Below are positions 4,540 to 64,000 of a DNA stretch of 64,000 nucleotides, piece by piece (position 1 is the first letter of the stretch; each line of letters begins with the position of its first letter). This DNA comes from Comamonadaceae bacterium (lineage in GTDB: Bacteria > Pseudomonadota > Gammaproteobacteria > Burkholderiales > Burkholderiaceae_C). A program made the position numbers and the translations under genes. The stretch covers positions 1-64,000 of the forward strand of contig SEAY01000004.1 of the NCBI GenBank assembly GCA_004144865.1, in the 5' to 3' direction. The notes under the pieces were generated by a model. The model did no database searches. It was not told the DNA's origin and saw nothing but the letters and a program-made list of their open reading frames with translations.

Positions 4540-5604
4540 CTACTGCTTCGCCTTCTCGCGGTTGGCGTGCAGGCGCGTGTCCACCAGATCCACGATGCGG
4601 TCGATCTCCGGATGGCGCAGCCCGAGCTGGCGCGCCACCAGCTGCACCAGCTTGTCGGCGCGCTCGATGTAGGGCGCGCCGTTCTGCAGCGCGCGCGCGG
4701 CCGAGGCGGGACGCGACAGGCTCTGCGCCGCGGCGGCGTACTTCTCGAACGGCACCAGGTCCTCGTCGCGCGCGCCCAGGCGCTTGCACACGTCGTAGAC
4801 GAAGTCGTAGACCGACTTCGATTGCGCGATGTCCGAGTGCACGGCCTCCTGCGCGGTGCGCATGCCGTCGGCCGTGATGCAGCGGTAGTTGCCCGCCAGC
4901 AGCATCGACCACTTGGCCAGCGGCACGAAGATGGATTCCGACAGGCGCAGCTTCACCGGCAGCTCGATGGGGCCTTCCGGCGCCTGGAAGCGCACCGCGT
5001 CCACGTCCTGCTCCAGCTGGCGCAGCAGCGCGGTGTGCTTCGGGTCGTCGAAGCGCGCCACCTTGAAGTTGGTGGGCAGGGTGACTTGCAGCACGTTGAC
5101 CTGCTCGTTCGGCGGGCGCACGGCCTGCGGGTCGGGGCTGCACAGGGTGAGCAGCTTCGGGTCGAAGGTGTCCCAGACGCTGGCGTCGGTGTACGCGGGC
5201 TTGAGCGCATCGGCGTCCAGGCCCGGGATGCGCCGCAGGTACGGCAGCGGCGGCATGTTCATGATCGACATGCAGGGCACGCGCGAGCGCCCCACCTCCG
5301 CCAGCAGCTCGCGCACGCCCGGCGAGCGGTACTGCGGCTCCTGCATCGCCAGGCCGACGAGGTCGTAGTCGGCCGGGTTCACGTCGCCGGTGCCGCCGGC
5401 CGACACCTTGCCGGGCAGCTTGCGCGAATCGATCTCGACCTGTTCGGCGCGGCCGCGCACCGGCATGCGGACGCGGAAGCCCTCGCTGTTGATCAGGTCG
5501 GCCTCGGCCGGCAGGCAGACGAGCTTCACCTCGTGGCCGCCAAACAGCAGCTTGGAAGCCAGCAGCGAGCCGTAGGAAGCGCCCAGGATCAGGATCTTGG
5601 CCAT
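4540..5604 (-). CDS. Ketopantoate reductase (ApbA/PanE)-like oxidoreductase
   Basis: MAKILILGASYGSLLASKLLFGGHEVKLVC Rossmann N-terminus; about 354 aa. Confidence 0.65.
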   Translation of the reverse strand: MAKILILGASYGSLLASKLLFGGHEVKLVCLPAEADLINSEGFRVRMPVRGRAEQVEIDSRKLPGKVSAGGTGDVNPADYDLVGLAMQEPQYRSPGVRELLAEVGRSRVPCMSIMNMPPLPYLRRIPGLDADALKPAYTDASVWDTFDPKLLTLCSPDPQAVRPPNEQVNVLQVTLPTNFKVARFDDPKHTALLRQLEQDVDAVRFQAPEGPIELPVKLRLSESIFVPLAKWSMLLAGNYRCITADGMRTAQEAVHSDIAQSKSVYDFVYDVCKRLGARDEDLVPFEKYAAAAQSLSRPASAARALQNGAPYIERADKLVQLVARQLGLRHPEIDRIVDLVDTRLHANREKAKQ

Positions 5605-5737
5605 GTCAGTCTCCTCTTTCTCTTGGTTGGCATGCCACCTCGGCGTGCGGGGGCAGACTACGCCTGCACCCGCCGCATGCCAAGTCGAAACGCTTTTGCC
5701 TGAAAGGGATGGACTCGCTGCAGCGCAGCAAAGCCCG

Positions 5738-7141
5738 CTACAGGGCAGGCCACCGGTGCGACCACGGATGCGCCGCCTCGTAGGCCGCGCCCAGGTCCAG
5801 CAGCACGTCGTCGCCGCCGTAGCGTCCCACCACCTGCATCCCGATCGGCAGGCCCTCGCGCGAGGGCTCGCAGGGCAACGCCAGCGCGGGCAGGCCCGCC
5901 GCATTGACCCAGCCGGTATAGACCGCGTGGCCGCGCGGTCCGACTTCCTGGCCGGCGATGTGCGTGGGATAGGCATCTTCGGCCTTCCACGGCAGGGCCG
6001 CCGCCGCGGGCAGCACGATCGCGTCGAAACGGTCGAAGAGGCCGGCGGCATCGCGCCGCAGCTTCTTCACCTGCTCGAGGATCTGCCACAGGCGCGCCGC
6101 GGGAATCGCGCGGCCCTTCTCGGCCATCTCGAGGTACTTGCCCGAGGCCTCGCGTGCCCACGCCGGATGGCGGTCGAACATCTGTGCCAGGCCGGCCTGG
6201 CCGATCTGCGGCCAGGCTTCGGCGAAGAAGTCGAGGTCGAGCGGCAAGGCGCCAGCTTCGACCGGGTGGCCCAGGTCCGCGAGCCGGCGCACCGCCTGTC
6301 CCACGCTCGCGGCCACCTGCGGATCCAGGGGCGCCGTGCCGAAGCGCTCGACGTAGAGGATGCGGCGGACGGCAGGCTGGCCCTGCGCCCGCGCCTGCTC
6401 CGCCGCGAGGGAGGAGCGATCCACGGCAGCCGGCCCGCGCATGATCTCGAACAGCAGCCGGGCGTCGGCGACCGTGCGCGCAAGCGGCCCGATCACCTCG
6501 AAGTCCAGCAGCAGGCTGGGCAGCACGTGCTCGCGCGGCACGGCCGACAGGCTGGGTTTGAGCCCGACCAACCCGGTGTGCGAGGCCGGCCGGCGGATCG
6601 AGCCCCCGCCGTCCTGGCCGATCGCGAGCGGAGCGATCCCGGCCGCCACCGCGGCCACCCCGCCGCCGGTGGAGCCGCCCGGCGTCAGCGCCGGGTTCCA
6701 GGGGTTGCGCGTGACCCCGAACACCGGGTTGGCCGTGTAGCCCTCCAGCGCGAACTCCGGCACATTGGTCTTGCCGACGATCAGCGCGCCGGCCGCGCGG
6801 GCCCGCGCCACGGACAGTTCGTCCTGGCCGGTGGCGTGCTCGCGCAGCGCGCGGCAACCCCAGGTGGTCGGCAGGTCGGCGGTGTAGAGGCTGTCCTTCA
6901 CCGTCAGCGGGATGCCGTCCAGCGGCGAAAGCGGCCGGCCCTGTGCGTGGCGCTCCGTGGACACCGCGGCCTCGCGCAGGAAGTCGGGGTCGCGCCGCGC
7001 CACCACGGCGTTCAGGCGTGGGTTCACCGCCTCCAGCCGCGCCAGGCAGGCCTGCGCCACCGCGACCGGGGTCAGGCTGCCGTCGCGGTAGCGGCGCTGC
7101 AGTTCGGTGGCGGGCAGGCGCCACAGGTCTTGCGTCGGCAT
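5738..7141 (-). CDS. Amidase (amidase signature family)
   Basis: GIPLTVKDSLYTADLPTTWG, GKTNVPEF, NPALTPGGSTGGGVAAVAAGIAPLAIGQDGGGSIRRPAS. Confidence 0.93.
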   Translation of the reverse strand: MPTQDLWRLPATELQRRYRDGSLTPVAVAQACLARLEAVNPRLNAVVARRDPDFLREAAVSTERHAQGRPLSPLDGIPLTVKDSLYTADLPTTWGCRALREHATGQDELSVARARAAGALIVGKTNVPEFALEGYTANPVFGVTRNPWNPALTPGGSTGGGVAAVAAGIAPLAIGQDGGGSIRRPASHTGLVGLKPSLSAVPREHVLPSLLLDFEVIGPLARTVADARLLFEIMRGPAAVDRSSLAAEQARAQGQPAVRRILYVERFGTAPLDPQVAASVGQAVRRLADLGHPVEAGALPLDLDFFAEAWPQIGQAGLAQMFDRHPAWAREASGKYLEMAEKGRAIPAARLWQILEQVKKLRRDAAGLFDRFDAIVLPAAAALPWKAEDAYPTHIAGQEVGPRGHAVYTGWVNAAGLPALALPCEPSREGLPIGMQVVGRYGGDDVLLDLGAAYEAAHPWSHRWPAL

Positions 7142-7146
7142 GGGGC

Positions 7147-8439
7147 TCACATCCTCGAGGGCAGGAAGGTCACGAGCTGCGGCACCGCCAGCAGCAGCAG
7201 CGTGAACGCGATCATGATCAGCGCGTAGGGCAGCGCGCCCCAGATCGCGTCCTCGATCCCGCCCTGGTCGGGGCGGATGCCGTGCACCACGAACAGGTTC
7301 ATGCCCACCGGCGGCGTGATCAGGCCCAGCTCGCACATCAGCACGATGAAGATGCCGAACCAGATCGGGTCGATGCCGACCGCCACCGCGATCGGGTAGG
7401 TGATGGGAATGGTGGCCACCTGCATGGACAGCACGTCCATGAACATGCCCAGGACCAGGTAGAACACGATCAGGGCCAGGATCAGCCCCGTCGGCGTCAG
7501 CCCCAGGCTGGTCACCCACTTGGTCATCGCCTCGGCAACCCCGGTCAGGCTGATGGCCAGGTTGAGGACGAAGGCGGCCGTCATGATCAGCAGGATCATG
7601 CCGCTCACCCGCGCGGTGGAAATGAAGCAGTTGCGCAGCAGCTCGCGGCTCATCTTGCCCGAATGCCAGACGAAGCCCAGCGCGGCCATCACGCCGAGCG
7701 CCGCGCTCTCCGTGGTGGTCGCGATCCCGAAGTAGAGGCTGCCCATGACGATGCCGAACACCACCAGGGGCGGCACCAGGTGCACCAGGCTGCGCAGCTT
7801 GTCCGCCAGCGGCACCTTCGCCTCGCGCATCACCTCGCCACTCATGATGCTGGAGATGCCGATGTACAGCATGAACAGCGCGGTGAGCAGCAGGCCGGGG
7901 ATGATGCCGGCGATGAACAGCTGGCCGATCGAGTTGTTGGTGAGCGAGCCGTAGACGATCATGTTCACGCTGGGCGGGATCAGGATCCCCAGCGTGCCGC
8001 CGGCGGCGAGGCTGCCGAGCGCACCGCGCATCGAATAGCCGCGCCGCTGCAGCGAGGGCAGGGCCACCGTGCCGACCGTCGCCGCGGTCGCCACCGAAGA
8101 CCCCGAGGTGGCCGCGAACAGCGCGCAGCTGCCGATGTTGGTGTGCAGCAGCCCGCCGGGCAGGCGGCCCAGCCAGGCCGACAGCGCGATGTACATGCGG
8201 TCGGCGATGCCCGAGCGCAGCAGCAGCTCGCCGAGCAGCACGAACAGCGGGATGCAGGTGAGCAGGTTCTCGTTGTGCACGCCCCAGACCACGGGCGCGA
8301 TCGAGTCCATGAAAGGCGCGCCATAGGCGGCAATGCCGCCGATGATGCCCACCAGAGCCATGGAGACGGCGATGGGCAGGCCGACGAGCATCATGCCCAG
8401 CATCGCCGTGAAGGCGAGGCCGAAGAAGGGAAGGCTCAT
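7147..8439 (-). CDS. TRAP transporter large permease (DctM)
   Basis: MSLPFFGLAFTAMLGMMLVGLPIAV...; DctM pattern GTLGILIPPSVNMIVYG. Confidence 0.92.
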   Translation of the reverse strand: MSLPFFGLAFTAMLGMMLVGLPIAVSMALVGIIGGIAAYGAPFMDSIAPVVWGVHNENLLTCIPLFVLLGELLLRSGIADRMYIALSAWLGRLPGGLLHTNIGSCALFAATSGSSVATAATVGTVALPSLQRRGYSMRGALGSLAAGGTLGILIPPSVNMIVYGSLTNNSIGQLFIAGIIPGLLLTALFMLYIGISSIMSGEVMREAKVPLADKLRSLVHLVPPLVVFGIVMGSLYFGIATTTESAALGVMAALGFVWHSGKMSRELLRNCFISTARVSGMILLIMTAAFVLNLAISLTGVAEAMTKWVTSLGLTPTGLILALIVFYLVLGMFMDVLSMQVATIPITYPIAVAVGIDPIWFGIFIVLMCELGLITPPVGMNLFVVHGIRPDQGGIEDAIWGALPYALIMIAFTLLLLAVPQLVTFLPSRM

Positions 8440-9089
8440 GGCTTGACTCCTTCGGCGGCCTGCCGGCTGGCCAGGTCGTCCAGTTCTTCCTTGAGCTCTT
8501 CCTTCGCGCTCTTCGGATGGAAATCGGTGTTGAGCGTCGCGATGCGGCCTCGCGCCAGCAGCAGCGTGGCGCGCAGGGCGTAGCCGGTGGCCACCAGGGC
8601 GAAGATCACCAGCCCGGCGTACCACACGGATTGCGGCCAGATCAGGGGCGTCGCCCAGGGGGTCTGCGCCGTACTGCCGTACTCCAGGGTGTCGGCAACC
8701 ACCTTGGTCGCCACCCAGGCGACGAAGGCGCCGAAGGCGGCCATGCTGACGATGGAGATCCAGTTCAGGAAGGCTTGCGCCCGGGGCGGGAACATCCCGT
8801 GGAACACGTCCACGCGGATATGGTTGCGGCCCATCAGGGCCAGGCTGAAGGCGATCGTCGAGCCGACCGCGAGCGCGTAGCCTCCCAGCTCGTCGGCGCC
8901 CTGCAGCGACACGTTGAAGACCTTGCGCGAGATCGTCTCCACCGTGACGACCAGGGCCAGCGCGATGAAGATGCCGCCGAACAGCCAGGCCAGCACGGTC
9001 TCGATGTGCTCCTTCACGCCGGCGGCCGCGGGGGAGGACGCGCGCGGCGCGCCTTCCTCCTGCTCCACGAGGGACGCGCCGTGGTTCAC
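8436..9089 (-). CDS. TRAP transporter small permease (DctQ), GTG start
   Basis: Four-TM protein overlapping the DctM start; VETISRKVFNVSLQGADELGGYALAVGSTIAFSLALMGRNHIRVDVF. Confidence 0.85.
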   Translation of the reverse strand: MNHGASLVEQEEGAPRASSPAAAGVKEHIETVLAWLFGGIFIALALVVTVETISRKVFNVSLQGADELGGYALAVGSTIAFSLALMGRNHIRVDVFHGMFPPRAQAFLNWISIVSMAAFGAFVAWVATKVVADTLEYGSTAQTPWATPLIWPQSVWYAGLVIFALVATGYALRATLLLARGRIATLNTDFHPKSAKEELKEELDDLASRQAAEGVKP

Positions 9090-10135
9090 TTCAGCCCCAG
9101 CACCGGTGCGACGGTGGCTTTCCATTGCCTCGAGCAGTCGGCGTTGGACTTGTCGCACACCTCGGACCAGGCCGGCAGCGACACCTTGCTCACTGCGCTG
9201 CGGATCAGTTCGCCGTCGGCGGGCGAGACGGGCACGTTCACCAGCTTGAACTTCTTGCCGGTGGTACAGGGGTCCTTGCCGGCGTTGCAGTTCAGGGCGT
9301 CCTGGAACAGCTGCTCGGAGTAGGTCCAGATGTCGCTGGTCAGGCCCTCGAAGGCGGTCTTCAGCTTGGCCTGCTGGTCGGGCTTGAGCTGGTTCCAGGC
9401 CTTCAGCGAGATCGCATAGCCGTTCAGCGCCATCTGGAAGCCCAGGGGCAGCTGGTGTGTCGTCACCTCCGGCCAGCCGGCGGAGTTGGCGGAGCTGGGG
9501 CCGGTGATCGCGCAATCGACCACGCCCAGCGACAGCGACTGGTGGGTGTCGGCGAAGGACACGGGCACCGGCGTGCCGCCCACCATCTCGATGAACTTGG
9601 CCAGGTTCTGGTCGTACACGCGGACCTTCATGCCCTTCACGTCGGCCAGCTGCGTGATCGGCTTCTTGCAGAACAGGATCTGCGGGCCGAACGGCCATAC
9701 GCCCAGCAGCTTGACGTTGAACTGCTTCTGCAGGCGGGCGTCGATGGTGTCGAAGTAGGCCGCGGCCACCTTGCGCCCGGTGGCGTAGTCGGGCGAGGCG
9801 CCGACCAGGTCGAGGCCCAGCAGCGTGGGCTCGTCGCGCGAATTCTGCGACACGCGCAGCGACACGATGTCGAACAGGCCGGCCTTCATCACGCGCAGCT
9901 GCTCGGTGTCCTTCAGCCCCAGCGTGTCGATCGGCTTGTAGTCGACGTCCGCCGCGATGCCCGTGCGCTGGGCGAAATTCTCGAAGAAGGGCTGTTCCTT
10001 GTTCTTCTGGATCAGGCCCGTGGCCAGCGGCTGGCCGATGGCCTTGAACTTGATGCGCTCCTGCGCGGCAGCGGGCAGCGCCAGGGCGGCGGCGACCGCG
10101 AGGGCGGCCAGGGATCGGAGGGAGAGGGCGGACAT
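9086..10135 (-). CDS. TRAP transporter substrate-binding protein (DctP)
   Basis: Signal peptide; KGMKVRVYDQNLAKFIEMVGGTPVPVSFADTHQSLSLGVVDCAITG. Confidence 0.9.
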   Translation of the reverse strand: MSALSLRSLAALAVAAALALPAAAQERIKFKAIGQPLATGLIQKNKEQPFFENFAQRTGIAADVDYKPIDTLGLKDTEQLRVMKAGLFDIVSLRVSQNSRDEPTLLGLDLVGASPDYATGRKVAAAYFDTIDARLQKQFNVKLLGVWPFGPQILFCKKPITQLADVKGMKVRVYDQNLAKFIEMVGGTPVPVSFADTHQSLSLGVVDCAITGPSSANSAGWPEVTTHQLPLGFQMALNGYAISLKAWNQLKPDQQAKLKTAFEGLTSDIWTYSEQLFQDALNCNAGKDPCTTGKKFKLVNVPVSPADGELIRSAVSKVSLPAWSEVCDKSNADCSRQWKATVAPVLGLK

Positions 10136-10162
10136 GGGACTCCTCGGGAGTGGCGGAAGGGA

Positions 10163-11443
10163 TCAGTAACCCAGCGCGCGCGGCAACGCGGTCACCAGGG
10201 GCGGGAACAGCATGCAGGCCGCCAGCACCGCGTACATCAGCGCGATGAAGGGCCAGACGTTGGCGACCAGCTCGCGCATGCGCACGCCGGTGATGCCGCA
10301 GACGACGAACAGCACGACCCCCACCGGCGGGGTCAGCATGCCGATCACCAGGTTGAGCACGAAGAGGAAGCCGAAGTGCAGCGGGTCCAGCCCGAACTGC
10401 AGGGCGATGGGGTGCAGCAGCGGCACCAGCATGATGTAGGCGGCGTTCGACTCGAGGAACATGCCCACCACGAACAGCAGCACGGACACCAGCAACAGGT
10501 AAACCAGCCCGCTGTCGGTGAAGCCGGTGAGCAGCGCCGTGAGCTTCTGCGGCAGCAGGTCCACCGTCATCAGGTAGGTGATGACGGAGGCGAAGGCGAT
10601 CAGCGCGCCCACCATGGCGGTGGTGATCGCCGCCCGCACCACGATGCCGGGCAGGTCCGAAGGCTTGAGCGTGCGGGTGACGAAGAAGCCGAGCAAGGCG
10701 GCGTAGACCACCGCGATCGCGGATCCCTCGGTGGCGGTGAAGGCGCCGCCCACGATGCCGCCGATCACCAGCACCGGCATGGCCAGCACGATGGCGGAGC
10801 GGCGCAGCTCCGCGAGTACCACGCGCAGGCGGAAAGGCTCGCCCGTGACGGCCCAGCCGCGGCGAGTGGCGATCCACGAGCACAGGGCCATGAAGCCCAC
10901 GGTGATGATGAGGCCGGGCACGACGCCCGCCATGAACATGCCGCCCACCGACACCGAGGAGCCCGCCATGAAGGCGTAGACGATCATCGCGCCGCTCGGC
11001 GGGATGATGGGGCCGAGGTTGGCGGCGGCGGCCACGATCGCGGTGGCGAAGCCTTTGTCGTACACCTTGGCCAGCGAGGGCACCAGCGTGGCGGACAGCG
11101 CGCTCGCGTCGGACACCGCCGCGCCCGACACCGTCGCGAGACCGGCGCCGGACAGCATGGTGACTTGGGCGAGGCCACCGCGCACCCGCCCGACGATGGC
11201 GTTGGCCAGCGTGATCAGCCGCTCCACGATGCCCGCCTTGATCATCAGCTCGCCGGCGAGCATGAAGAAGGGAATGGACATCAGCGGGAAGGAGTTGACC
11301 GCGTGCATCATGCGCTGAGGCACCATGGTCAGGTCGACGCCGGTGGCCAGCAGCGCGAGCAGCGCGGCCACGCCCATGGCGAAGGCGATCGGCAGGCCCA
11401 GCAGCGACAGGCCCATGAAGCCGGCGATCACGGCCCCGCTCAT
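10163..11443 (-). CDS. TRAP transporter large permease (DctM), second set
   Basis: MSGAVIAGFMGLSLLGLPIAFAMG...NLGPIIPPSGAMIVYAFMAGSSVSVGGMFMAGVVPG. Confidence 0.92.
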   Translation of the reverse strand: MSGAVIAGFMGLSLLGLPIAFAMGVAALLALLATGVDLTMVPQRMMHAVNSFPLMSIPFFMLAGELMIKAGIVERLITLANAIVGRVRGGLAQVTMLSGAGLATVSGAAVSDASALSATLVPSLAKVYDKGFATAIVAAAANLGPIIPPSGAMIVYAFMAGSSVSVGGMFMAGVVPGLIITVGFMALCSWIATRRGWAVTGEPFRLRVVLAELRRSAIVLAMPVLVIGGIVGGAFTATEGSAIAVVYAALLGFFVTRTLKPSDLPGIVVRAAITTAMVGALIAFASVITYLMTVDLLPQKLTALLTGFTDSGLVYLLLVSVLLFVVGMFLESNAAYIMLVPLLHPIALQFGLDPLHFGFLFVLNLVIGMLTPPVGVVLFVVCGITGVRMRELVANVWPFIALMYAVLAACMLFPPLVTALPRALGY

Positions 11444-52296: not shown

Positions 52297-52887
52297 ATGA
52301 AGCGTGCTATTCAAAAGGGCTTTACCCTGATCGAACTGATGATCGTGGTTGCGATCATCGGTATCCTGGCCGCCGTCGCGCTGCCCGCTTACCAGGACTA
52401 CATGATCCGCACCCGCGTGTCTGAAGGCCTGGCGCTGGTCGAGCCGGCCAAGGTTGCCCTGGCTTCCGAAGGTGTCTCGTCCATCAACGAAATGGGCACC
52501 GTGACCCGCGACTGGAACGCCCAGGCCGGCGGCGTCGGTGCGGCGTCCAAGTTCGTCACGTCCATCCAGTTCGCAGGCGCGCCCGCCGCTGGCGTCAACC
52601 CCCCGGCGCAGACCGCCAACCCGGTGATCACCATCACCTACAACGCTGGTAACGTGGGTCTTGGTGCGGCCGCCAACACGCTGACGTTGACCCCCTGGAT
52701 GCGCACCGGCCAAGGTGGCGCCACCGTCGGTGAGTCCGCGTTCGACGCCGTGACGGCCGGCCGCAGCGGCTCGCTGGATTGGGGCTGCGCTTCGGTGAGC
52801 GGCAACAACGCTCTCGGTTCGAACATCGCCGTGGGTGCCAACCTGGGCACGATGCTGGCCAAGTTCGCGCCCGCCCAGTGCCGCTAA
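52297..52887 (+). CDS. pilA: Type IV pilin
   Basis: [46 protein letters not shown]-terminal Cys pair region DWGCAS...APAQCR. Confidence 0.96.
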
Positions 52888-52940
52888 TGGCCTGATCGGA
52901 TGCGTGGAAGGTGCCTGGCACTTTCCAGGTTCGAACCGAA

Positions 52941-52968
52941 AAGGATTCCCGCGAGGGAATCCTTTTTT
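52941..52968 (+). terminator. Rho-independent terminator after pilA
   Basis: AAGGATTCCC-gcga-GGGAATCC-TTTTTT. Confidence 0.92.
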
Positions 52969-53030
52969 CATTGCAGCCACCCGCGCCATGCGGCCCGGTG
53001 CCGCCGGCCTCCTTTGCCACAATTGCCTCC

Positions 53031-53801
53031 ATGATCAGCTCCACACGGATCCGTGCCGCTGCGAATGCGGCGCTCGTTCACCTGGGCCTCAGCGCCCTCG
53101 TCGGCCTGGCCACGGCCGCACTCGTCTTTGGTTTGTGGTTCCCCTATCCTTTCCGCAACCTTTCGGGCGGACAGGAGCTGTTTTTGCTGCTGGTCAGCGT
53201 GGACGTGGTGTGCGGCCCGCTGCTGACGGCGGTGCTGTTCAACACCCGGAAGTCGCGGCGCGAACTGACGCTGGACTTGTCGCTGGTCGCCCTCGTGCAG
53301 CTCGCGGCGCTGGTGTACGGCGTCCATGTGATCAGCCAGGCGCGCCCCGTCGTCCTTGCCTATGAAACGGATCGCCTCGTGGCGGTCTCCGCAGCCCAGG
53401 TCGATCCCGCAGACCTCGGCAAAGCCCCGCCGGATTTCCAGAATCTTTCCTGGAGCGGCCCTGTCCTCGTGGGCACACGGGACGCCAAGCCGGGAGAGAC
53501 CTTGGAAAGCGTGTTGCTTTCGACGCATGGGGTGGAGCCCAGCGCCCGACCGAGCTGGTGGCAGCCCTACGAGAAGAACCGTCCGCAGATCCAACAGCGG
53601 ATGAAGAAGCTGGCGGACCTGCGTGCCGCACGCCCGTCCGCAGCGCAGGCCGAGATCGATGCAGCAGCGGCGAAGGCCGGATTGCCCGTCGCGGATCTTT
53701 TCTATGTCCCCTTGACGAGCCAGAAGATGCTCGATGGCTGGATCGCCCTGCTCGATCGCGATACCCGCATCGTCGGATACGCGCCCGTGGACGGGTTCTG
53801 A
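53031..53801 (+). CDS. TfpX/TfpZ-like type IV pilin accessory protein
   Basis: Hydrophobic N-terminus LVGLATAALVFGLWFPYPFRNLSGGQELFLLLVSVDVVCGPLLTAVLFNTRKSRRELTLDLSLVALVQLAALVYGV; directly after pilin. Confidence 0.8.
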   Translation: MISSTRIRAAANAALVHLGLSALVGLATAALVFGLWFPYPFRNLSGGQELFLLLVSVDVVCGPLLTAVLFNTRKSRRELTLDLSLVALVQLAALVYGVHVISQARPVVLAYETDRLVAVSAAQVDPADLGKAPPDFQNLSWSGPVLVGTRDAKPGETLESVLLSTHGVEPSARPSWWQPYEKNRPQIQQRMKKLADLRAARPSAAQAEIDAAAAKAGLPVADLFYVPLTSQKMLDGWIALLDRDTRIVGYAPVDGF

Positions 53802-53820
53802 CGCCGCGCGGAGCCCCGCC

Positions 53821-55425
53821 CTGAAACCCATCCCGCTCGCCGCCGGCGTGGCGGCTGTCCTCGCCGCCTTGCCGTGGATCCAGCCCTGGACGGCCGGACC
53901 GTCGCCCCAGGCCGTGCCGTGGATGGTGAGCGCGCTGTGCGCGCTCGCACTCTGGCTTCTTGCACGCGCAGCCGTCCCCCCGCGGCGCCTGCCTGCCTGG
54001 TTGTGGAGCGGTTGCGTGGCCGTGCTGGGGTGGACGCTGCTCGCGCATGGCGCGCGGCCCGAGGTCTTGATGCTGGCCGGCGCGCTGTTGCTGGTCCTGC
54101 TGGCCGCAGGGCTCGCGACGGAGGGGCGTCTCGCGACTGCCGTGCAGGTGGGCTGGCTGGCCGCCGCGGCGCTCACCGCCTTGGCCGGCCTGGCGCAGTA
54201 TCTCGGCGTCACGTCGGGCCTGGAGGCGCTGGTGCGCGTCGCTTCGCCTTCCACCGCCTACGGCAACCTGGGACAGACGAACCAGTACGCCACCTTCTGC
54301 TGGATGGGCGCGGCGGTCGTGCTGTGGGCGCCGCTGCGGCTTCCCATGGCTGCGCGGACCGCCCTGGTGGTTCTCCTCGCTTTCGGCAGCGCCGCCTCCG
54401 CGTCGCGCACCGGCATGCTCGAAGGCGGCTTGCTGGTGGTGCTGGCGCTCCTGTGGACCGGCCCGGGCCGGCGCGAGCGCCTGCTGCTTTGCGCCGCAGC
54501 CTCCGTCGCCTACGCCGCCGGCGTGGCGCTGCTGCCCGCCCTCCTGGAGATGCGCACCGGCCTCGAGATGCCGCGCGCGCTATGGAACCGCTTCGGCGGC
54601 GACGGCTGCTCGAGCCGCCTGGTGGTGTGGTCCAACGTGCTGCACCTGATCGGCCAGAAGCCGCTGGCAGGCTGGGGCTGGGGCGAGCTCGATTACGCGC
54701 ACTACATGACGCTCTACGAGGGCGCGCGCTTCTGCGAGATTCTCGACAACGCCCACAACCTCCCGCTGCACCTGGCCGTCGAACTGGGCGTGCCGGCGGC
54801 GCTGCTCATCGTCGGCACGGTGCTCTTGTGGGGTTGGCGGCAACAGCCCTGGCGTGAGGAGGATCCGCAGCGGCGGCTGGCTTGGGCCGTGCTGGGCCTG
54901 ATCCTGCTGCACAGCCTGCTGGAATACCCCCTCTGGTACGGCCCGTTCCAGATCGCTTTCGGGGTGTGCCTGGGCTGGCTCGTCGCAGCGCCCGTGCCGG
55001 GAGCTGCATCCGCTTCGCCGCTGCCGCGTACCGCGTTCGCCGCCCTGGTTCTCGGCGGCCTGGGCTACGCGGCCTGGGACTATGCGCGCGTGAGCCAGGT
55101 CTATCGCCAGCCGGAGGAGCGCCTTGCCGCGTGGTCCGACGACACCCTGGACCACGTGCGACGTTCCTGGCTCTTCTCCGGGCAGGCGGGATTCGCGGAC
55201 TTGACGCTCGCCACGCCCGCGCGTGACAACGCGCCATGGATGTACGCGCTGGCGCAACGCACGCTGCACTACTCGCCGGAGCCGCGCGTCATCGAGCGAC
55301 TGGTGGAAAGCGCCACCTTCCTGGGCCGCACCGACGAAGCGGTGCAGCACCTCGCGCGCTACCGCGCCGCGTTCCCGGCAGACTACGAAGCCTGGCGCCG
55401 GGCGCAGCGCCTGCCGCCGCGCTGA
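53821..55425 (+). CDS. O-antigen ligase/PglL-family O-oligosaccharyltransferase-like membrane protein (start uncertain; ATG ORF opens at 53734)
   Basis: Multi-TM; STAYGNLGQTNQYATFCWMG; GWGELDYAHYMTLYEGARFCEILDNAHNLPLHLAVELGVPAALLIV. Confidence 0.83.
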   Translation: MKPIPLAAGVAAVLAALPWIQPWTAGPSPQAVPWMVSALCALALWLLARAAVPPRRLPAWLWSGCVAVLGWTLLAHGARPEVLMLAGALLLVLLAAGLATEGRLATAVQVGWLAAAALTALAGLAQYLGVTSGLEALVRVASPSTAYGNLGQTNQYATFCWMGAAVVLWAPLRLPMAARTALVVLLAFGSAASASRTGMLEGGLLVVLALLWTGPGRRERLLLCAAASVAYAAGVALLPALLEMRTGLEMPRALWNRFGGDGCSSRLVVWSNVLHLIGQKPLAGWGWGELDYAHYMTLYEGARFCEILDNAHNLPLHLAVELGVPAALLIVGTVLLWGWRQQPWREEDPQRRLAWAVLGLILLHSLLEYPLWYGPFQIAFGVCLGWLVAAPVPGAASASPLPRTAFAALVLGGLGYAAWDYARVSQVYRQPEERLAAWSDDTLDHVRRSWLFSGQAGFADLTLATPARDNAPWMYALAQRTLHYSPEPRVIERLVESATFLGRTDEAVQHLARYRAAFPADYEAWRRAQRLPPR

Positions 55426-55437
55426 TCGCACCCTTCG

Positions 55438-55558
55438 TCAACCGGCGCGGTAGCTCCCCGACTTCCCGCCATGCTTCTCCAGCAGCTTCACGTCGGTGAT
55501 GGTCATGCCGCGGTCCACCGCCTTGCACATGTCGTAAATGGTGAGCAGGGCGACGTTC
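55438..55558 (-). pseudogene. moaC: 3' remnant of moaC (cyclic pyranopterin monophosphate synthase), 5' part missing from window
   Basis: Minus strand reads [39 protein letters not shown], a MoaC C-terminus; upstream in the same frame it hits a TAA within about 8 codons. Confidence 0.88.
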
Positions 55559-55820: not shown

Positions 55821-56564
55821 ATGCGGCATGTGCAGGTCGAAGAGGTGATGGGACGCGTCGAACAGGGGCGTACTGAACCCTTTCTGTGCCGCTGCACCGA
55901 CGGTGCTACCTATGTGGTCAAGGGGCGCTCGGCTGGTCGAAGAGGCCTGGCCTCGGAGGTGATCTGCGCAGGCCTGGCACAGATTCTCGGGCTCCCAGTT
56001 CCGGAGCCAGTCATAGTGCACGTGCCAGCAGAACTTCTGGAAGCGAGCGACGCCGTCGGACTGCCGCTTACCGACCTCGGGACTGGGCCCGCCTTCGGCT
56101 CACTTCATGTAAAGGCGGTGGAATTCACAATGGCGCACCGCGACCTAGTATCGGAAGAGCAACGCCAGGCAGTCGCGGTGTTCGACTGGTGGATTTGCAA
56201 CGAGGACCGCACGTTGACCCCGCTGGGGGGAAACGTGAACTTGCTTTGGGCTGTCCCCCCGATAGAAGGCTTGGTCGTGATCGACCATAACCTCGCGCTG
56301 GAGAGCTTAGACAGGGCCGCCTTTCTGACTACCCACGTTTTTGCAAGCGATTTTCTGGCAGTAGCCGCTGACTTCGTCTTACGTGACGCGTGGCGACAAA
56401 GACTCCAAGCCGCTGCGGACGAGTGGGACCATATCGTCAGTGAGGTTCCTCCTGAGTGGGACTTCATTGACTTCGAACAGACCGTGCCCTCAAATGTCGA
56501 TTTCACCGCCATGAAGGAACGGCTGGACCGCTGCAGAGCGGCAACTTTTTGGGACCAGGCATGA
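55821..56564 (+). CDS. HipA-like kinase domain protein
   Basis: TYVVKGRSAGRRGLASEVICAGLAQILGLPVPEPVIVHV...AVFDWWICNEDRTLTPLGGNVNLLW...LVVIDHNLAL. Confidence 0.78.
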   Translation: MRHVQVEEVMGRVEQGRTEPFLCRCTDGATYVVKGRSAGRRGLASEVICAGLAQILGLPVPEPVIVHVPAELLEASDAVGLPLTDLGTGPAFGSLHVKAVEFTMAHRDLVSEEQRQAVAVFDWWICNEDRTLTPLGGNVNLLWAVPPIEGLVVIDHNLALESLDRAAFLTTHVFASDFLAVAADFVLRDAWRQRLQAAADEWDHIVSEVPPEWDFIDFEQTVPSNVDFTAMKERLDRCRAATFWDQA

Positions 56565-57550
56565 CATTCGCCTGCCACTACGCCATCGTTCGATTCGTGC
56601 CATTCGCCGAGACCGGCGAGTTCGCGAACGTGGGCGTTGTGTTGTTCTCTCCGAAGGCGAGGTTCTTCAGCTTTCAGCTGATGAAGAACCGCTATGCACG
56701 CATCACTAATTTTTTCGAGGAGCTGGACGCGAAGGTCTACCGCACAGTGATGCGAAACGCACAAGAGGAGCTGCAACGGGTTGCACAGCAGTTCAAACCC
56801 CTCGGCACGGATAGGCGGTTCAAACTCTTCGACAATTCAGCCGCGTACGCGCTTTGGGCGGAGCTAACAAAGCCGCTTGCATCGATGCTGCGAATGAGCG
56901 AGCCCCGGCTCGTGATGGCGGATGACCCAGCCAAGAAGCTGAAGGACCTCTTTGCGTACTACGTGGAGCGCAACTTCGTCACGCGAGAGTACCAAGATGA
57001 ACTTCTGATTCGCGCAGTGCGCGGAGTCCTGCGGGACGCGGGGGTACTCGATCGTTTCCACCAGATGCGTGTGGGCAATGACGAATATCACGCGACGTTC
57101 CCCTTTGTGGCTTCTGTTGACGATCAGCCAGTGCAGATCATCAAGCCGCTCAACCTGTCACAAGCCGAGCCCACAAAAATCCTAGATCACGGTCTGGCCT
57201 GGGTGTATCGATTGAAGACGTTGAGGCGAAAGAATCTTTTGCCGGAGCAGGTCTTAGTGGCAGTCGGAGATCCGCAACCCGGTACAACCGATAAACAGAT
57301 GGCGGCCAGAAACGATGTGCTCGGAGAGTTCGCCGACCTCAATGTCCTCGTTCGGCCAATCCAAGACGCCGCTGCTCTCAAAGCATTTGCGGCACGCGCT
57401 CTTGATCTGCCTCTGCCTCTGCCTCTGCCTCAAGCACCGGCGGTGGATGAACTTCTCAGCACGTTGAAGTCTGCTCAGCTTGGCCTCCTCGCACCAGGCG
57501 AAGCTGCGCAAAACTGGCCCGAACTGCCCGCTCCGAAGAAGGACAAGTAG
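56561..57550 (+). CDS. DUF3037-like protein, coupled to the HipA-like kinase (ATGA overlap)
   Basis: MTFACHYAIVRFVPFAETGEFANVGVVLFSPKARFFSFQLMKNRYARITNFF. Confidence 0.78.
   Translation: MTFACHYAIVRFVPFAETGEFANVGVVLFSPKARFFSFQLMKNRYARITNFFEELDAKVYRTVMRNAQEELQRVAQQFKPLGTDRRFKLFDNSAAYALWAELTKPLASMLRMSEPRLVMADDPAKKLKDLFAYYVERNFVTREYQDELLIRAVRGVLRDAGVLDRFHQMRVGNDEYHATFPFVASVDDQPVQIIKPLNLSQAEPTKILDHGLAWVYRLKTLRRKNLLPEQVLVAVGDPQPGTTDKQMAARNDVLGEFADLNVLVRPIQDAAALKAFAARALDLPLPLPLPQAPAVDELLSTLKSAQLGLLAPGEAAQNWPELPAPKKDK
57407..57430 (+). repeat. Hexanucleotide SSR (CTGCCT)x4 in the DUF3037 gene
   Basis: ctgcctctgcctctgcctctgcct, encoding Leu-Pro repeats. Confidence 0.95.
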
Positions 57551-57599: not shown

Positions 57600-58232
57600 C
57601 TAGCCTTTAGCCAAGAGCACGCCCAGGCCACCTTGCCAGTCTGAACTGCCGCAGTACAACAGTACCCCCAGCGCAAGCAGGAATGGAAGCAGGTAGTCCG
57701 TTCCCACTGTACTCCTGAACACGGCGTCGATGATTGAGAGGGTGATCCGCGCCGCGACCATGGGACGGTTTAGCCTCACTTCAAACTCTCGACGACCGAC
57801 TTCCTTCCCGCCTTCCATGATCCGCTCTTCGGAGCGAACCACAAAGGTAGTCTTGAAAAGATCGATCATCCTTGGAAACCCCGTCTTAGTTTCCCAGCCG
57901 GGATGCACCTTCTGGACTCTCGCCATCCACACCAGGGCAAGGTTGTCCATCCGTGACCGAAAAGCGTCCAAAACTTCTTGCTGTGCGAACCGAACGAAGT
58001 ACTGGTAGTACCGGTACAAGAAGTAGGCGAAGGCTATCCAGATCGCTAGATAGAGAGCGTCGGGACGATTGAAGGTCACATCGAACCCTGCAAGGCTCAT
58101 CTTCTCTAGCTTCACTTCACCGAACCGCAGCAGCCATAGGACAGTGCACACCAGGATCAAGTTGCGGCGCTGACGGAGCAGCCCCTCGTTCATGGACTGG
58201 CTCTCCTTGCGACCAAACAGGTTGTCATCCAC
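57600..58232 (-). CDS. Hypothetical membrane protein (210 aa)
   Basis: TMs LILVCTVLWLLRF, LYLAIWIAFAYFLYRYY and C-terminal LLPFLLALGVLLYCG; same strand, downstream of the GHKL ATPase. Confidence 0.7.
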   Translation of the reverse strand: MDDNLFGRKESQSMNEGLLRQRRNLILVCTVLWLLRFGEVKLEKMSLAGFDVTFNRPDALYLAIWIAFAYFLYRYYQYFVRFAQQEVLDAFRSRMDNLALVWMARVQKVHPGWETKTGFPRMIDLFKTTFVVRSEERIMEGGKEVGRREFEVRLNRPMVAARITLSIIDAVFRSTVGTDYLLPFLLALGVLLYCGSSDWQGGLGVLLAKG

Positions 58233-58412
58233 CGACCAACTCCGACGAGCAAAGACACTGAATCAATATCGCCCCTTGGGACGATGAGAGCTACAAGATG
58301 CAGCCGAACGCGTACACGCTCAGGTAGAAGGCTTCAATCTTTTCTGATGAGCCTCGCAGCTCGCGGCCAGAGCCTATCAAGGCGGCGCGAAATCGGCAGG
58401 AGGGCTACGCCG

Positions 58413-60395
58413 CTATTCATCCTTGTAGTACATCTTCTGCCGCGCTTCTTCCTCGCTCCGGTCAGTAAGGAAGCCGATCAAGTCTTTGAGTACCACCACC
58501 TCGAAGCTCATTTCAGAGGCGCTGTCGGCGAACGCTTGGTGTGTCGCGCCGAAGTGCACTCGTTCGGAGCCTTCATCGGCAACCAGCATGGACCGGAAGT
58601 AGAACTTGTCCCGATAGCGCGGACTGCAAGACCAGCAGACGACGAGATCAATCTGTTGTGCGCTCTTCTCCTCCTTCTCAATGTCATCCATGAGGGAGTC
58701 GAACTCAAACTTGTATTCCAGCACTCTGGGTTCCGTCACATGCCCGAGGTACTTATGCGCCACCGCCAGGGGACGAGTTTCCCGGTCATAGCGGAATTCG
58801 GGTTCGTCGGGGTATTCCAGTTCGTACAGGCTGTCGTAGGTCTCGCTCTGCGACGTCGCGAAGATGTTGTAGCCTTTAAGCAGTCCACACCCTAGTAGCT
58901 GATGAAAGAGCGCGATGACGTCTTGCTCCTTCTGCGGCTCCGAGATCATCGCCAGCTTTACGCCGTTCAGAACCAGGCTCACCTGCTTCTGTTCTCTGTG
59001 CGCCTCCTGCGCCTTCTTCCATTCGTGAAGCTGTTTACTCGCGGAGACCGTCGGCGGTCCAACATCTGGCCGGCGGTGGGACAAGAACCGCTTGAAGATT
59101 GTGACGACCCGCACCGCCAGCTTCTCAGCCAAACGCTTGAGTTCTGGCTGGAACACCTTGCGGCCCATGTCGGGGTTGCCCTCGCTGAAATGCACAATGA
59201 CGTGCGAGTTCGCTTGATAGCCGATTGTGCTTGTCAACGGGATCACCAGCGGATCGCCTTGCACCATGCCGTCGCAAGCCAGTTGAAGGCCACCCTTCAT
59301 GATTTGGGTCGTCTTGCGGAGTCCAATTACTTCGTCATTGAACATGGCCCACTGCTTGGACGAGGATAAGAACGCCCCATAGATCACGATGTTGTGCCGT
59401 TCTACGAGGATGACTTCTTCTGGGTCGAGCACACCGGTGAAATCACCTCCCTCTTTTAGCAGGTCATCCTTTGTCCAGATGTCCCACATGGTGTCGAGCT
59501 TCTTGAGGTGGCCAGGCAATTTAGTGAACTTAGTCTTCACATCGCCGGGGATGGCATTGAGGGCCTTGGATATGTCCCCGAGCGCAGCGACCTTTCCAGG
59601 GATTTCGTGAGGGTAGTAGTACTCGCAGTGCGCAGTGTGCGTTGTACTAACTCCGCCCTCGGTATCGACAACGGTGAGGGTCACCTCGGGTGCGAACTTG
59701 TCCGTTGTGAGGGTGATCGCGCCCAGCGGAGTCTTTATTCGCAGCACGTCCAGCCATTGGTTGGCAGTACGGGCACCAATCCAACCGAGATCACGAGGAC
59801 GCTCGCCGGGAGAGTCTCCCAGCACCACCTCAAAGGACGCTCCGCTTTCCTCGTGCTCAAGCTCCGCGACCGAGAACTTCTGCGCTTCAAGTCTGGGCCG
59901 GGGCACTGCGCCGCTGATGTTCTCCGCCCACTTTCTGCCGCCTCGAAGAATTGCAGAAAGTTCAACTCCATCCTTCTTCGACTGAATGCGGATCTGCGAG
60001 AAGCCGTAAGCCAAGTAGGTCGCCCCAACCCCCTTATTGCCCCTTAGCTTCTCTCCGCGCTTGAACGTGACGTTCGGTCGGAAGCAGAACTTGAACTCGG
60101 TGGCCGACATCCCAACGCCGTTGTCAGTGATGCGGACCCTGCGGTCCTTCATGTCGATCAATAGCCAAATGCGCGGTTTGTAAGTCGGAGGCGAATGCCT
60201 TGCCTTGTGCTGCGTAGCATCCAGCGCGTTCTGCACGAGTTCCGAAAACAAGTCGTAGAACCCGGTGTACGAGTTCAGCACGTTGAGCACAACTGGCTTG
60301 TTCGGGTCCATCCCGGCGGTCGTGTTAGGCACCCCCTCCAACGGATCGAACCCGTCGAGATCCTTTTCATAGTCAGCCAGCTTGGACATCGGCAA
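58413..60395 (-). CDS. GHKL/HATPase (MORC/Hsp90-like) ATP-binding protein, 660 aa
   Basis: FSELVQNALDATQ (N-box), RITDNGVGM (G1), GNKGVGATYLAYGFSQI (G2); C-terminal VLEYKFEFDSLMDDIEKEEKSAQQIDLVVCWS. Confidence 0.85.
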   Translation of the reverse strand: MPMSKLADYEKDLDGFDPLEGVPNTTAGMDPNKPVVLNVLNSYTGFYDLFSELVQNALDATQHKARHSPPTYKPRIWLLIDMKDRRVRITDNGVGMSATEFKFCFRPNVTFKRGEKLRGNKGVGATYLAYGFSQIRIQSKKDGVELSAILRGGRKWAENISGAVPRPRLEAQKFSVAELEHEESGASFEVVLGDSPGERPRDLGWIGARTANQWLDVLRIKTPLGAITLTTDKFAPEVTLTVVDTEGGVSTTHTAHCEYYYPHEIPGKVAALGDISKALNAIPGDVKTKFTKLPGHLKKLDTMWDIWTKDDLLKEGGDFTGVLDPEEVILVERHNIVIYGAFLSSSKQWAMFNDEVIGLRKTTQIMKGGLQLACDGMVQGDPLVIPLTSTIGYQANSHVIVHFSEGNPDMGRKVFQPELKRLAEKLAVRVVTIFKRFLSHRRPDVGPPTVSASKQLHEWKKAQEAHREQKQVSLVLNGVKLAMISEPQKEQDVIALFHQLLGCGLLKGYNIFATSQSETYDSLYELEYPDEPEFRYDRETRPLAVAHKYLGHVTEPRVLEYKFEFDSLMDDIEKEEKSAQQIDLVVCWSCSPRYRDKFYFRSMLVADEGSERVHFGATHQAFADSASEMSFEVVVLKDLIGFLTDRSEEEARQKMYYKDE

Positions 60396-60538: not shown

Positions 60539-60577
60539 CCGCCACCCTTTATGAACACCCACGGAGGCGAGAGCAGC

Positions 60578-61165
60578 ATGTCCCGAGTCTTTGCGTATTG
60601 CCGCGTGAGCACGCACGATCAGACGACCGAGAACCAAGTCCGAGAGATTAGGGCGGCGGGCTTCGCGGTCACGCCCAGCCGAGTCGTGGCAGAGACCATC
60701 TCCGGTGGCGTGCCTGCCGGTGATCGTCCAGGCTTCACGCTCCTGAGGCACAAGCTGGAGGCGGGAGACGTTCTCGTCGTCACCAAACTAGATCGACTTG
60801 GCCGGAATGCCATGGACCTGCGGGCCACGGTGGAGAGCCTCGCAGCCGACGGCATCCGTGTTCACTGCCTCGCGCTGGGTGGCGTGGACCTGACCAGCCC
60901 CGCAGGGAAGATGACCATGGGTGTCATCGCTGCCGTCGCGGAGTTTGAGCGGGACCTGCTGATCGAGCGGACCGCCTCGGGACTCGCCCGCGCGAAGGCA
61001 GCTGGAAAGCCGCTGGGGCGTCCGCCAGCCTTGGACAAGGGTCAGGTGGCCACCGCACTCCAAAAGCTCGCTGGCGGGGCCTCCGTGGCCTCCGTGGCCC
61101 GTGACATGAAGGCGAGCCGAGCAACCATCGCCCGCATCCGGGACGGCGTAGCTGCCGGCGCCTGA
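60578..61165 (+). CDS. Serine recombinase / resolvase family protein
   Basis: MSRVFAYCRVSTHDQTTENQVREI...VVTKLDRLGRNAMDLRATVESL...LDLTSPAGKM-type, EFERDLLIERTASGLARAKAAGKPLGRPP, C-terminal HTH. Confidence 0.95.
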   Translation: MSRVFAYCRVSTHDQTTENQVREIRAAGFAVTPSRVVAETISGGVPAGDRPGFTLLRHKLEAGDVLVVTKLDRLGRNAMDLRATVESLAADGIRVHCLALGGVDLTSPAGKMTMGVIAAVAEFERDLLIERTASGLARAKAAGKPLGRPPALDKGQVATALQKLAGGASVASVARDMKASRATIARIRDGVAAGA

Positions 61166-61272: not shown

Positions 61273-61294
61273 CCTGTAATACAGGTACCGGAAG
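61273..61294 (+). repeat. att-like direct repeat, copy 1
   Basis: cctgtaAtacaggtaccggaag; 21/22 identity to 63342-63363. Confidence 0.8.
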
Positions 61295-61522: not shown

Positions 61523-61798
61523 CTACTGCGAAACATTTTTGGCTTGCACCTCCTGAGACCCGGGCATCAAAAGCTCATAGGCCTGGAGACCGAACGCCTT
61601 CGCCAGTTTGTCGAGGTTGTCCAGTGAGATGTTCCTTGCCTGCCGCTCCACATGCGCAACGAACGTCCGGTGCAAACCGCATTCGAGGGCTAGATCCTCT
61701 TGCGACCAGTCCCGCGCCCCCCGTAGCCGAATGAGGTTGAGGGCCAAAAGCTCCCGCACTGGTGCGTGGCGGGGCTTGGACTTGGCGGCTGGTGGCAC
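61523..61798 (-). CDS. XRE-family helix-turn-helix regulator
   Basis: LNLIRLRGARDWSQEDLALECGLHRTFVAHVERQARNISLDNLDKLAKAFGLQAYELL. Confidence 0.93.
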   Translation of the reverse strand: MPPAAKSKPRHAPVRELLALNLIRLRGARDWSQEDLALECGLHRTFVAHVERQARNISLDNLDKLAKAFGLQAYELLMPGSQEVQAKNVSQ

Positions 61799-61887
61799 GC
61801 CGCGAAGTCTTGAAGTTCCGAGCCTTTGAGTCAGCCGCGTTTAAGTCACATTCCTGTTACCCTCGCGGCGCCATTGAGGAGAGAACT

Positions 61888-62490
61888 TGTGTGCACGCTC
61901 AGACGCTTTGCCGCATTGCTTTACCTAGCCGCTTTCGGGAACCGCCAACTGCGTACGAGTTGGCCCCGCAGGGAATGAGGGATCACTGCATCGCTGGGGT
62001 GTGCATTGGCATGACGGTGAAGGAGGTTGAAGCGATAGGGCCACTTCGCCACAGCTTCGCCGGCAGTCCAACGGACTCAATCACCTGCGATCTAAACAGT
62101 CCTTTCATGAAGACTAGAGCGCGGCTTGTGACACCGGAAGGAACTCGCCTACGGCTGGCTTTTGACCTAGTCACGCAGCGCGGGAACCCGGACACCAAGT
62201 ACCGGCTGCACTTCATTGCGGTTGAAGTACCAGGGGGAACACCAGCTCAAATCGCCGAGTTGCTGGACACGCTACAGGACCGCTTTAGGGCGTCCTATAG
62301 GGTCAATCGGCAGATGTGGATGCGCCCGGAGACGCCGGACGATGCATTCACCGTGTTCGTCGGCGCCACTGCTCCGGGCCAGTACGAGCCCGGGGACGCG
62401 CCCAGTGTCGTCCTAATGGTCGAATACCGGCACAAAAAGGAATGGCTCATGAGTCAACCTGTGTGCCGAGAAGGAATGCCAAAGCTATAG
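61888..62490 (+). CDS. Hypothetical protein, start/frame uncertain
   Basis: Frame of ORF 61762..62490: GVCIGMTVKEVEAIGPLRHSF...; the N-terminal part does not look coding in this frame. Confidence 0.45.
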   Translation, partial: CVHAQTLCRIALPSRFREPPTAYELAPQGMRDHCIAGVCIGMTVKEVEAIGPLRHSFAGSPTDSITCDLNSPFMKTRARLVTPEGTRLRLAFDLVTQRGNPDTKYRLHFIAVEVPGGTPAQIAELLDTLQDRFRASYRVNRQMWMRPETPDDAFTVFVGATAPGQYEPGDAPSVVLMVEYRHKKEWLMSQPVCREGMPKL

Positions 62491-62560: not shown

Positions 62561-63250
62561 CTAGGACGCCTTGGGCTTCGCGTGCAAGGCCGCTTCTAGG
62601 GCGGGAATCGGCAGTCGAACGATCGGATACTCCTTCCCTTTGGCGCGGTTCACAGTGCGTTTGAACCTGTGTCCGTTCACAAGAACGGCATCGTCGGTGA
62701 TTGCGACGAGCACGGTCGCACGCGTCCCCTTGCCTTCGACTGCGGCTTTGACGGCGTTGTGCAGTTCCTTCAACGTCATTTCGGCCCTGAGTTTCAGCGA
62801 CGAGACCGGCGGCGGCGCTCCGGCAATCATCGACCTGGCGCGACTGAGAGCCCATTTAGGGAGGGGCTTCGTCCACGTCTTGTAAACCGCATGGGAGGGG
62901 AACTGCGCCTCCACAATCTGCCGACATTCCTGCTGGGTCCGCGCGGCAGATGCCGGGCTCAAGATGACCTGGATCAGGCGCAGCAATACGGCACTTTGCC
63001 CCTTCGTCTGCGCTGGCCTGAAATCCGGTCCGCCTGAGACGGCGAGCCCGGCGCAAAGGTCTGAGTTCCGTTGAAGGAAACTGGCTACGAATCTCTCATA
63101 TTCGGGTTGAAACGCCTTCGCTGCTGCCGCGCGGCGTTCGAGTAGTCGGGGGTCAGACGCCCGTCGCTGCGTAGCTCCGAGCGCCTCGGGTGCCGGGTCT
63201 TCGCCGAGCAGAAATGGCAAGTCTTCGGGGTCCAGCTCAAATATGTTCAT
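62561..63250 (-). CDS. Hypothetical protein (229 aa)
   Basis: MNIFELDPEDLPFLLGEDPAPEALGATQRRASDPRLLERRAAAAKAFQPEYERFVASFL. Confidence 0.6.
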   Translation of the reverse strand: MNIFELDPEDLPFLLGEDPAPEALGATQRRASDPRLLERRAAAAKAFQPEYERFVASFLQRNSDLCAGLAVSGGPDFRPAQTKGQSAVLLRLIQVILSPASAARTQQECRQIVEAQFPSHAVYKTWTKPLPKWALSRARSMIAGAPPPVSSLKLRAEMTLKELHNAVKAAVEGKGTRATVLVAITDDAVLVNGHRFKRTVNRAKGKEYPIVRLPIPALEAALHAKPKAS

Positions 63251-63341: not shown

Positions 63342-63363
63342 CCTGTAGTACAGGTACCGGAAG
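63342..63363 (+). repeat. att-like direct repeat, copy 2, just past the integrase 3' end
   Basis: cctgtaGtacaggtaccggaag. Confidence 0.8.
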
Positions 63364-63379: not shown

Positions 63380-64000
63380 TCAGCCCAGCTTTTGAGCCAG
63401 TGACTCCGCGCTGGGGTGGTAGTACCGCTTGAGCATCTGAATTGTCCGATGGCCTGTGACAGAGGCGAGTTCAATGACGTTGGGCAGCTTGGCGGCCATC
63501 TCGCTGGTGGCCGTATGCCGCAAGTCGTGAAACCGGAGGTCGTGCACGCCCGCTCGAGTTCGCGCCCTCTTGAACGCGGCCTCCATCGTCTGCGCTGAAA
63601 CGGGGAACACCCGACCATCGGCAGAGCGTTGCAGCCCAGAAAGGACTGCCGAGGCGTTGGAGGACAGGGGAACTGCGCGAGGCTGTCCATTCTTCGTCAT
63701 TGGTAGAAGGGCCACCCGGCGAACAAGATCGACATGGTCCCAGCGAAGCGAGAGCAATTCGCCCCGCCGCATCGCTGTGTAGAGAGCGAGCTGGGCGAGT
63801 GGCAACATCCATGGATTGCGCCGCCCCGATGGGGCCAGCGCGGCAAAGAGCCGTTCCCGCTCCTCGGCCGACAGCACCCTGCTACGTCCCGGCGGCGTGG
63901 CTGGCTTCCGCACAAGGGCGCATGGGTTCTCGACGGCGAGTCCCCATTCGCGGCGAGCATGGTTGATTACGCTCGACAGGAGTGAGAGGTCGCGGATGAC
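63380..64000 (-). CDS. Tyrosine-type recombinase/integrase (N-terminus beyond window)
   Basis: VIRDLSLLSSVINHARREWGLAVENPCALVRKP...LALYTAMRRGELLSLRWDHVDL...HDLRHTATSEMAAKL...VTGHRTIQMLKRYYHP (R..HxLRH..H..Y). Confidence 0.96.
   Translation of the reverse strand, partial: VIRDLSLLSSVINHARREWGLAVENPCALVRKPATPPGRSRVLSAEERERLFAALAPSGRRNPWMLPLAQLALYTAMRRGELLSLRWDHVDLVRRVALLPMTKNGQPRAVPLSSNASAVLSGLQRSADGRVFPVSAQTMEAAFKRARTRAGVHDLRFHDLRHTATSEMAAKLPNVIELASVTGHRTIQMLKRYYHPSAESLAQKLG

Follow-up and report, generated by a model that had tools for sequence, protein, structure and literature searches.

Results

A single gene, carried by a mobile island in the analysed window (the whole stretch of 64,000 nucleotides), probably constitutes a defence system by itself: its product is best explained as a predicted dimeric GHKL ATPase of the Hsp90/MutL/MORC type, fused to a probable PD-(D/E)XK DNA nuclease according to the paraMORC3 design. 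Its most likely role is predicted to be that of an ATP-gated DNA nuclease restricting invading DNA. The features of the island are reported in Table 1.

Table 1. Features of the island, with window coordinates unless otherwise indicated. Residues of the GHKL protein are counted, here and in the text, from TTG 60395, not from ATG 60389.
Feature	Position	Strand	Details
Left copy of moaC 3'-end duplication (att-like)	55450..55557	.	Right copy at contig position 64519-64626, just past the window
HipA_2 kinase + DUF3037 pair	55821..57550	+	Pfam 2.3e-73 and 3e-24; PADLOC PDC-M66; HipAD/DS-6 type
Membrane protein	57600..58193	-	197 aa from ATG 58193; 210 aa from GTG 58232; judged outside the system
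GHKL-S5-nuclease gene (paraMORC3-like)	58413..60389	-	658 aa
C-terminal domain, residues 447-660	58416..59057	-	E490, D521, E560-x-K562; conserved K577, R612, T618-H619
D409-x-G-R412-K413-x-F415-Q416, transducer (S5-like) segment	59148..59171	-	Invariant; Foldseek to Hsp90, TopoVI-B, SMCHD1
GHKL ATP-site motifs	60024..60242	-	N-box E52/N56/D59; D91-x-G93-x-G95; R118-G-x-K-G-V-G124
Resolvase	60551-61165		Island
HTH regulator	61523-61798		Island
Two island proteins	61762-62490, 62561-63250		No Pfam match
Tyrosine integrase of the island	63380..64000, on to contig position 64393	-	Pfam Phage_integrase 2.5e-26; full ORF in L008

The GHKL gene and its ATPase module

In the list of open reading frames the gene appears as a 660-aa frame at 58413-60395 (minus strand), counted from TTG 60395. 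The best start is ATG 60389, because it lies 8 nt after GAGGAGGAG, a likely ribosome-binding site to which TTG 60395 is too near. The gene is present in single copy in its own genome. When it is compared with its nearest relative, a Methylibium sequence (L011) 71% identical to it, codon positions 1/2/3 differ 25/16/59%; since the differences concentrate at third positions, the comparison indicates that purifying selection acts on the gene.

The intact GHKL ATP site reported in a preliminary description of this DNA is borne out by motifs, by Pfam matches and by conservation within the family. ELVQNALDA, DNGVGM and GNKGVG are all present, and both HATPase_c (residues 45-124) and HATPase_c_3 score above their cut-offs. 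Among 75 full-length members the ATP-site motifs are invariant or conserved in at least 97%; the N-box residues E52, N56 and D59, the D91-x-G93 and R118-G-x-K-G-V-G124 motifs, and D409-x-G-R412-K413 are invariant. From the motif pattern, R412 is proposed as a catalytic arginine of the Hsp90 type, its motif being one that we take to resemble the catalytic-arginine segment of Hsp90.

The AlphaFold model of the full-length protein (pLDDT 89.5) was compared by Foldseek with the PDB, where Hsp90 was the best match, followed by TopoVI-B and SMCHD1, with E-values down to 6e-13. In these matches, with E-values from 6e-13 upwards, the ATPase modules align over some 440-480 columns, and the model shows an Hsp90/TopoVI-like ATPase-plus-transducer architecture. 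It is in this architecture, by structure, that the protein resembles Hsp90/HtpG, TopoVI-B and SMCHD1/MORC; unlike it, these families carry no nuclease fusion, and the window protein scores far under their family cut-offs.

The C-terminal domain

Near the C-terminus an E-x-K, followed by a hydrophobic D-LVVCW, had been noticed and likened to PD-(D/E)XK cores. Both elements are present, as VLEYK at residues 558-562 and IDLVVCW at residues 582-588. E490, D521, E560 and K562 are all invariant (100%) in the 75 full-length members and, since E560 and K562 are kept in 75 relatives spanning 30-71% identity, sequence comparison indicates that the two motifs exceed chance. The AlphaFold model of the domain (pLDDT 92.4, pTM 0.90) shows the order H44-56/E63-65/E76-82/E111-118/H120-127/E138-143, that is, a helix with E490, a strand, a strand beginning at D521, a strand with E560-x-K562, a helix and a strand. 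As modelled, this alpha-beta-beta-beta-alpha-beta order, together with the E-D-ExK set, is that of PD-(D/E)XK domains.

The suggested core was thus sustained by the predicted order and by the invariance of E-D-ExK, and not by a fold match, as Foldseek returned none for the domain from the PDB and from viral structures. A sequence search against the PDB gave 0 matches at E<=5; Pfam left the domain uncovered in all 75 members, with nothing credible over the last 210 residues of the window protein. Comparing profiles with those of SduA_C, NOV_C, Vsr and CfrBI gave no match either, which is weak counter-evidence of low power, because known PD-(D/E)XK families, used as a yardstick, mostly go unmatched as well when they are compared with one another in this way. 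A PD-(D/E)XK fold is considered probable from the model, and the domain is likely to be a nuclease, on the basis of its motif and of the predicted order of its secondary-structure elements. No Pfam, NCBIfam or PADLOC model was found for it, so that defence surveys built on these collections would miss the family.

Comparison with described systems

The paraMORC3 proteins, described by Iyer, Abhiman and Aravind in 2008, consist of a GHKL domain, an S5 domain and a C-terminal RE-fold domain with E-D-ExK; they are frequent in proteobacteria and Bacteroidetes, either linked to R-M systems or standalone (PMC2292703). In the window family, GHKL ATP-binding motifs are found in the 75 members (HATPase_c/HATPase_c_3), an S5-like transducer after the GHKL domain is predicted by the match of the model to Hsp90, TopoVI-B and SMCHD1, and E490, D521, E560 and K562 stand in a C-terminal domain with the expected predicted order of secondary-structure elements. 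The C-terminal domain of paraMORC3 has been described as similar to RecB nucleases (PMC2292703), whereas the window domain had no match in Pfam or PDB searches, the yardstick being here of low power. As compared through its published description, paraMORC3 is a design that the window protein fits.

VcSduA, the GHKL-type Shedu (type I-D) of Vibrio cholerae, joins GHKL to DUF4263 and acts against phages; its protection is abolished by E27A and by K557A, both ATPase and nuclease residues being needed (PMC12137116). The term "undescribed", applied to the candidate in the preliminary description, was therefore too strong: the GHKL-nuclease design dates back to 2008, and an anti-phage example also precedes. 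The window protein is like VcSduA in being encoded by a single gene on a mobile island, with a GHKL N-terminus, a predicted C-terminal PD-(D/E)XK domain and a similar spacing between the ATPase Glu and the nuclease Lys. The nuclease of VcSduA is, however, DUF4263/SduA_C, that of the window protein is not, and the alignment is limited to the ATPase domains. PF14082 (DUF4263/SduA_C) had no match at E<=1 in the 75 members. By hhalign, with L115 (GHKL + SduA_C make-up) and plasmid relatives as stand-ins for VcSduA, the ATPase domains gave 91.5%, whereas the window nuclease, compared with VcSduA-like proteins and with SduA_C domains, reached a probability of 0.2-0.5%. Membership of Shedu by sequence was rejected, the SduA_C test having failed. 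The VcSduA-like GHKL + SduA_C protein of L115 is encoded at 190-1956; a distant plasmid relative of it (L132) lies directly after a DNA cytosine methyltransferase.

PADLOC gave no model for the window GHKL protein. Some relatives showed weak HMM matches at the ATP site to TmtA, which we take to be the Tiamat protein, and the window protein itself showed none. About 75 ATP-site residues were matched, out of models of 1370-1782 positions, and Tiamat was rejected for lack of any full-length TmtA match.

Distribution and neighbourhoods of the family

By tblastn and profile scans, relatives were identified in 5 of 399 genomes from this bacterium's order (including the genome of origin and one marginal match), as well as on three plasmids, on 76 contigs of genomes and on 8 of viral origin. 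The hosts belong to Pseudomonadota, Acidobacteriota, Bacteroidota, Bacillota, Chloroflexota, Planctomycetota and others, as well as archaea, the family being patchily present over about ten phyla and archaea. Phyla are mixed in the tree, with 16 label changes against a minimum possible of 9 and a mean of 34 for shuffled labels; the window protein falls within a well-supported clade of ten members, on a long stem. The window protein had no match among GenBank phages, and the P2-prophage copy none among E. coli genomes.

No recurrent partner gene was found among 83 loci: the family is a single-gene one, without conserved partner. Its commonest neighbours are integrases (10 of the 83 loci; the sequences of the cluster served to name it) and C5 methylases (7 loci), and many homologues adjoin housekeeping genes rather than defence genes. 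In two P2-like prophages (L088 and L089) the GHKL gene is alone between V (gpV) and S (gpS), as lone cargo of the interval 5264-10995 and in opposite orientation. Since the position of the P2 hotspots was not found in Rousset et al. 2022 (PMC9122126), we do not equate the V-S site with a hotspot published there. In another prophage (L087) the GHKL gene precedes an AAA gene and a GmrSD_N gene. In five Chloroflexota loci it is directly followed by a relative of the CfrBI-family restriction endonuclease, identified by a Pfam match in L034 and by clustering in L038, L042, L059 and L082.

The adjacent membrane protein

The preliminary description had combined the ATPase with the small membrane protein that follows it into a two-gene module. 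The protein is indeed present on the same strand, with 219 bp between the two genes, and three hydrophobic stretches are recognised in it by eye. The ATG start is more likely than the GTG, because AAGGAG, taken as its ribosome-binding site, lies upstream of it. Promoter and terminator predictions between the two genes gave nothing above chance.

Searches with a three-sequence profile, and with the single sequence, found relatives of the membrane protein at none of 84 GHKL loci (63 of which have 2 kb or more of flanking sequence on either side), not even beside the 71%-identical homologue. A further 150 genomes from the taxonomic family of the host contained none, and neither did viral contigs. 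Two relatives lie elsewhere, without a GHKL gene: one (L126) is flanked by ppk and lnt, genes identified by their sequences, and the other, on a Pseudoalteromonas plasmid (L096), has an integrase as its neighbour. The membrane protein is judged to be unrelated island cargo and not a conserved partner, and the two-gene module, a false lead, is removed. The small family that it forms with L096 (5965-6588) and L126 (5939-6571) is sporadic in Gammaproteobacteria, has no Pfam model and shares an N-terminal LLRQRRNL.

Proposed function and alternative explanations

GHKL ATPases act as gates in chaperones, in topoisomerases and in mismatch repair. In the protein described here, ATP binding would close the ATPase domains as a clamp on DNA bearing a feature that is foreign or belongs to replicating phage. 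Turnover of ATP would then position the C-terminal nuclease, which would cut the clamped DNA. No methyltransferase is linked to the window gene, and a search of the 93%-complete genome of origin found none of the C5 type; self and non-self would thus probably be told apart through the condition of the DNA (ends, topology, modification) rather than through a methylated site. By analogy with VcSduA, direct restriction of the phage would be expected, rather than killing of the cell. In favour of this reading are the intact ATP site, the modelled architecture, the invariant E-D-ExK set, the lack of a conserved partner gene, the patchy distribution, the integrases, C5 methylases and Dcm/Vsr genes near some copies, the location in prophages and on an island with att-like repeats and a HipAD-type pair, and the precedent of VcSduA; against it stand the missing fold, Pfam and profile matches of the C-terminal domain, the missing PADLOC model and the many copies beside housekeeping genes. 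If this is true, a compact and widespread protein, in which an ATP switch and a nuclease are joined, would offer a clean system for the study of how clamp closure licenses DNA cutting in immunity. Only tentatively can a further step be taken, namely that the family represents an anti-phage system of its own, made of a single gene and with a nuclease lineage unrelated to Shedu. GHKL-gated nucleases would then have arisen more than once, one ATP switch having been fused to PD-(D/E)XK domains of different kinds, and K577 and R612...T618-H619 may read a DNA feature unused by known systems.

Cytosine methylation could still enter the picture if the protein were an orphan subunit from an R-M or repair system linked to 5-methylcytosine, of the Dcm/Vsr type, i.e. 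a DNA-looping, MutL-like ATPase-nuclease needing a methylase or helicase for target choice. The C5 methylases within 6 kb of the GHKL gene in 7 of 83 loci, accompanied in some by Vsr, are in agreement with this, as are the Dcm/Vsr genes adjoining a relative on a Rhizobium plasmid, the CfrBI-type endonuclease adjacent in Chloroflexota and the assignment of paraMORCs to R-M systems by Iyer et al. (PMC2292703). The majority of loci, however, have no methylase, the prophage copies stand alone, and the lack of any C5 methylase found in the genome of origin adds to making this explanation unlikely. For copies found outside R-M contexts, the same authors proposed roles in repair (PMC2292703), and a MutL analogue for DNA or mismatch repair, or a housekeeping nuclease of mobile elements, would serve genome maintenance and not defence. 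The fusion of GHKL to a nuclease does resemble MutL, and several copies lie amid housekeeping genes; patchy presence, mixing between phyla, location in prophages and islands and the occurrence of defence neighbours render such a role quite improbable. Abortive infection, as proposed in the preliminary description, with the GHKL protein as sensor and the membrane protein as effector, could draw on the common strand, the short distance and the lack of any terminator-like site found between the genes. This model falls, because relatives of the membrane protein were found at none of the 84 GHKL loci and are located elsewhere; the ATPase, moreover, bears a likely effector domain of its own, and we regard the explanation as very improbable indeed.

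The island and its other genes

The location on a mobile island, already proposed, was confirmed by an integrase and by a 108-bp direct repeat, 97% identical, of the 3' end of moaC, a gene recognised from its translated sequence. Because of this repeat, the 9.2-kb integrase island inserted in the moaC 3' end is real. Two partial matches, lying 21.6 kb apart in a genome of the same genus (G1308:C80), suggest that the moaC 3' end is used repeatedly as an insertion site.

The HipA_2 and DUF3037 genes, which overlap by 16 bp and are convergent with the membrane protein gene, are a second, independent defence system on the island. DS-6/HipAD systems protect E. coli, HipA being the toxin and DUF3037 the antidote (PMC13092281, PMC12548924).

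Near-identical 22-nt repeats, CCTGTA(A/G)TACAGGTACCGGAAG, with a palindrome-like CCTGTA..TACAGG core, are located at 61273-61294 and 63342-63363, and may serve the island as operators or as sites of recombination. To the left of the island, the region 52297-55425 contains a type IV pilin-like gene, followed by genes for a 296-aa membrane protein and for a multi-pass protein, which by eye resembles O-antigen ligase/polymerase; it is perhaps a pilin glycosylation cluster.
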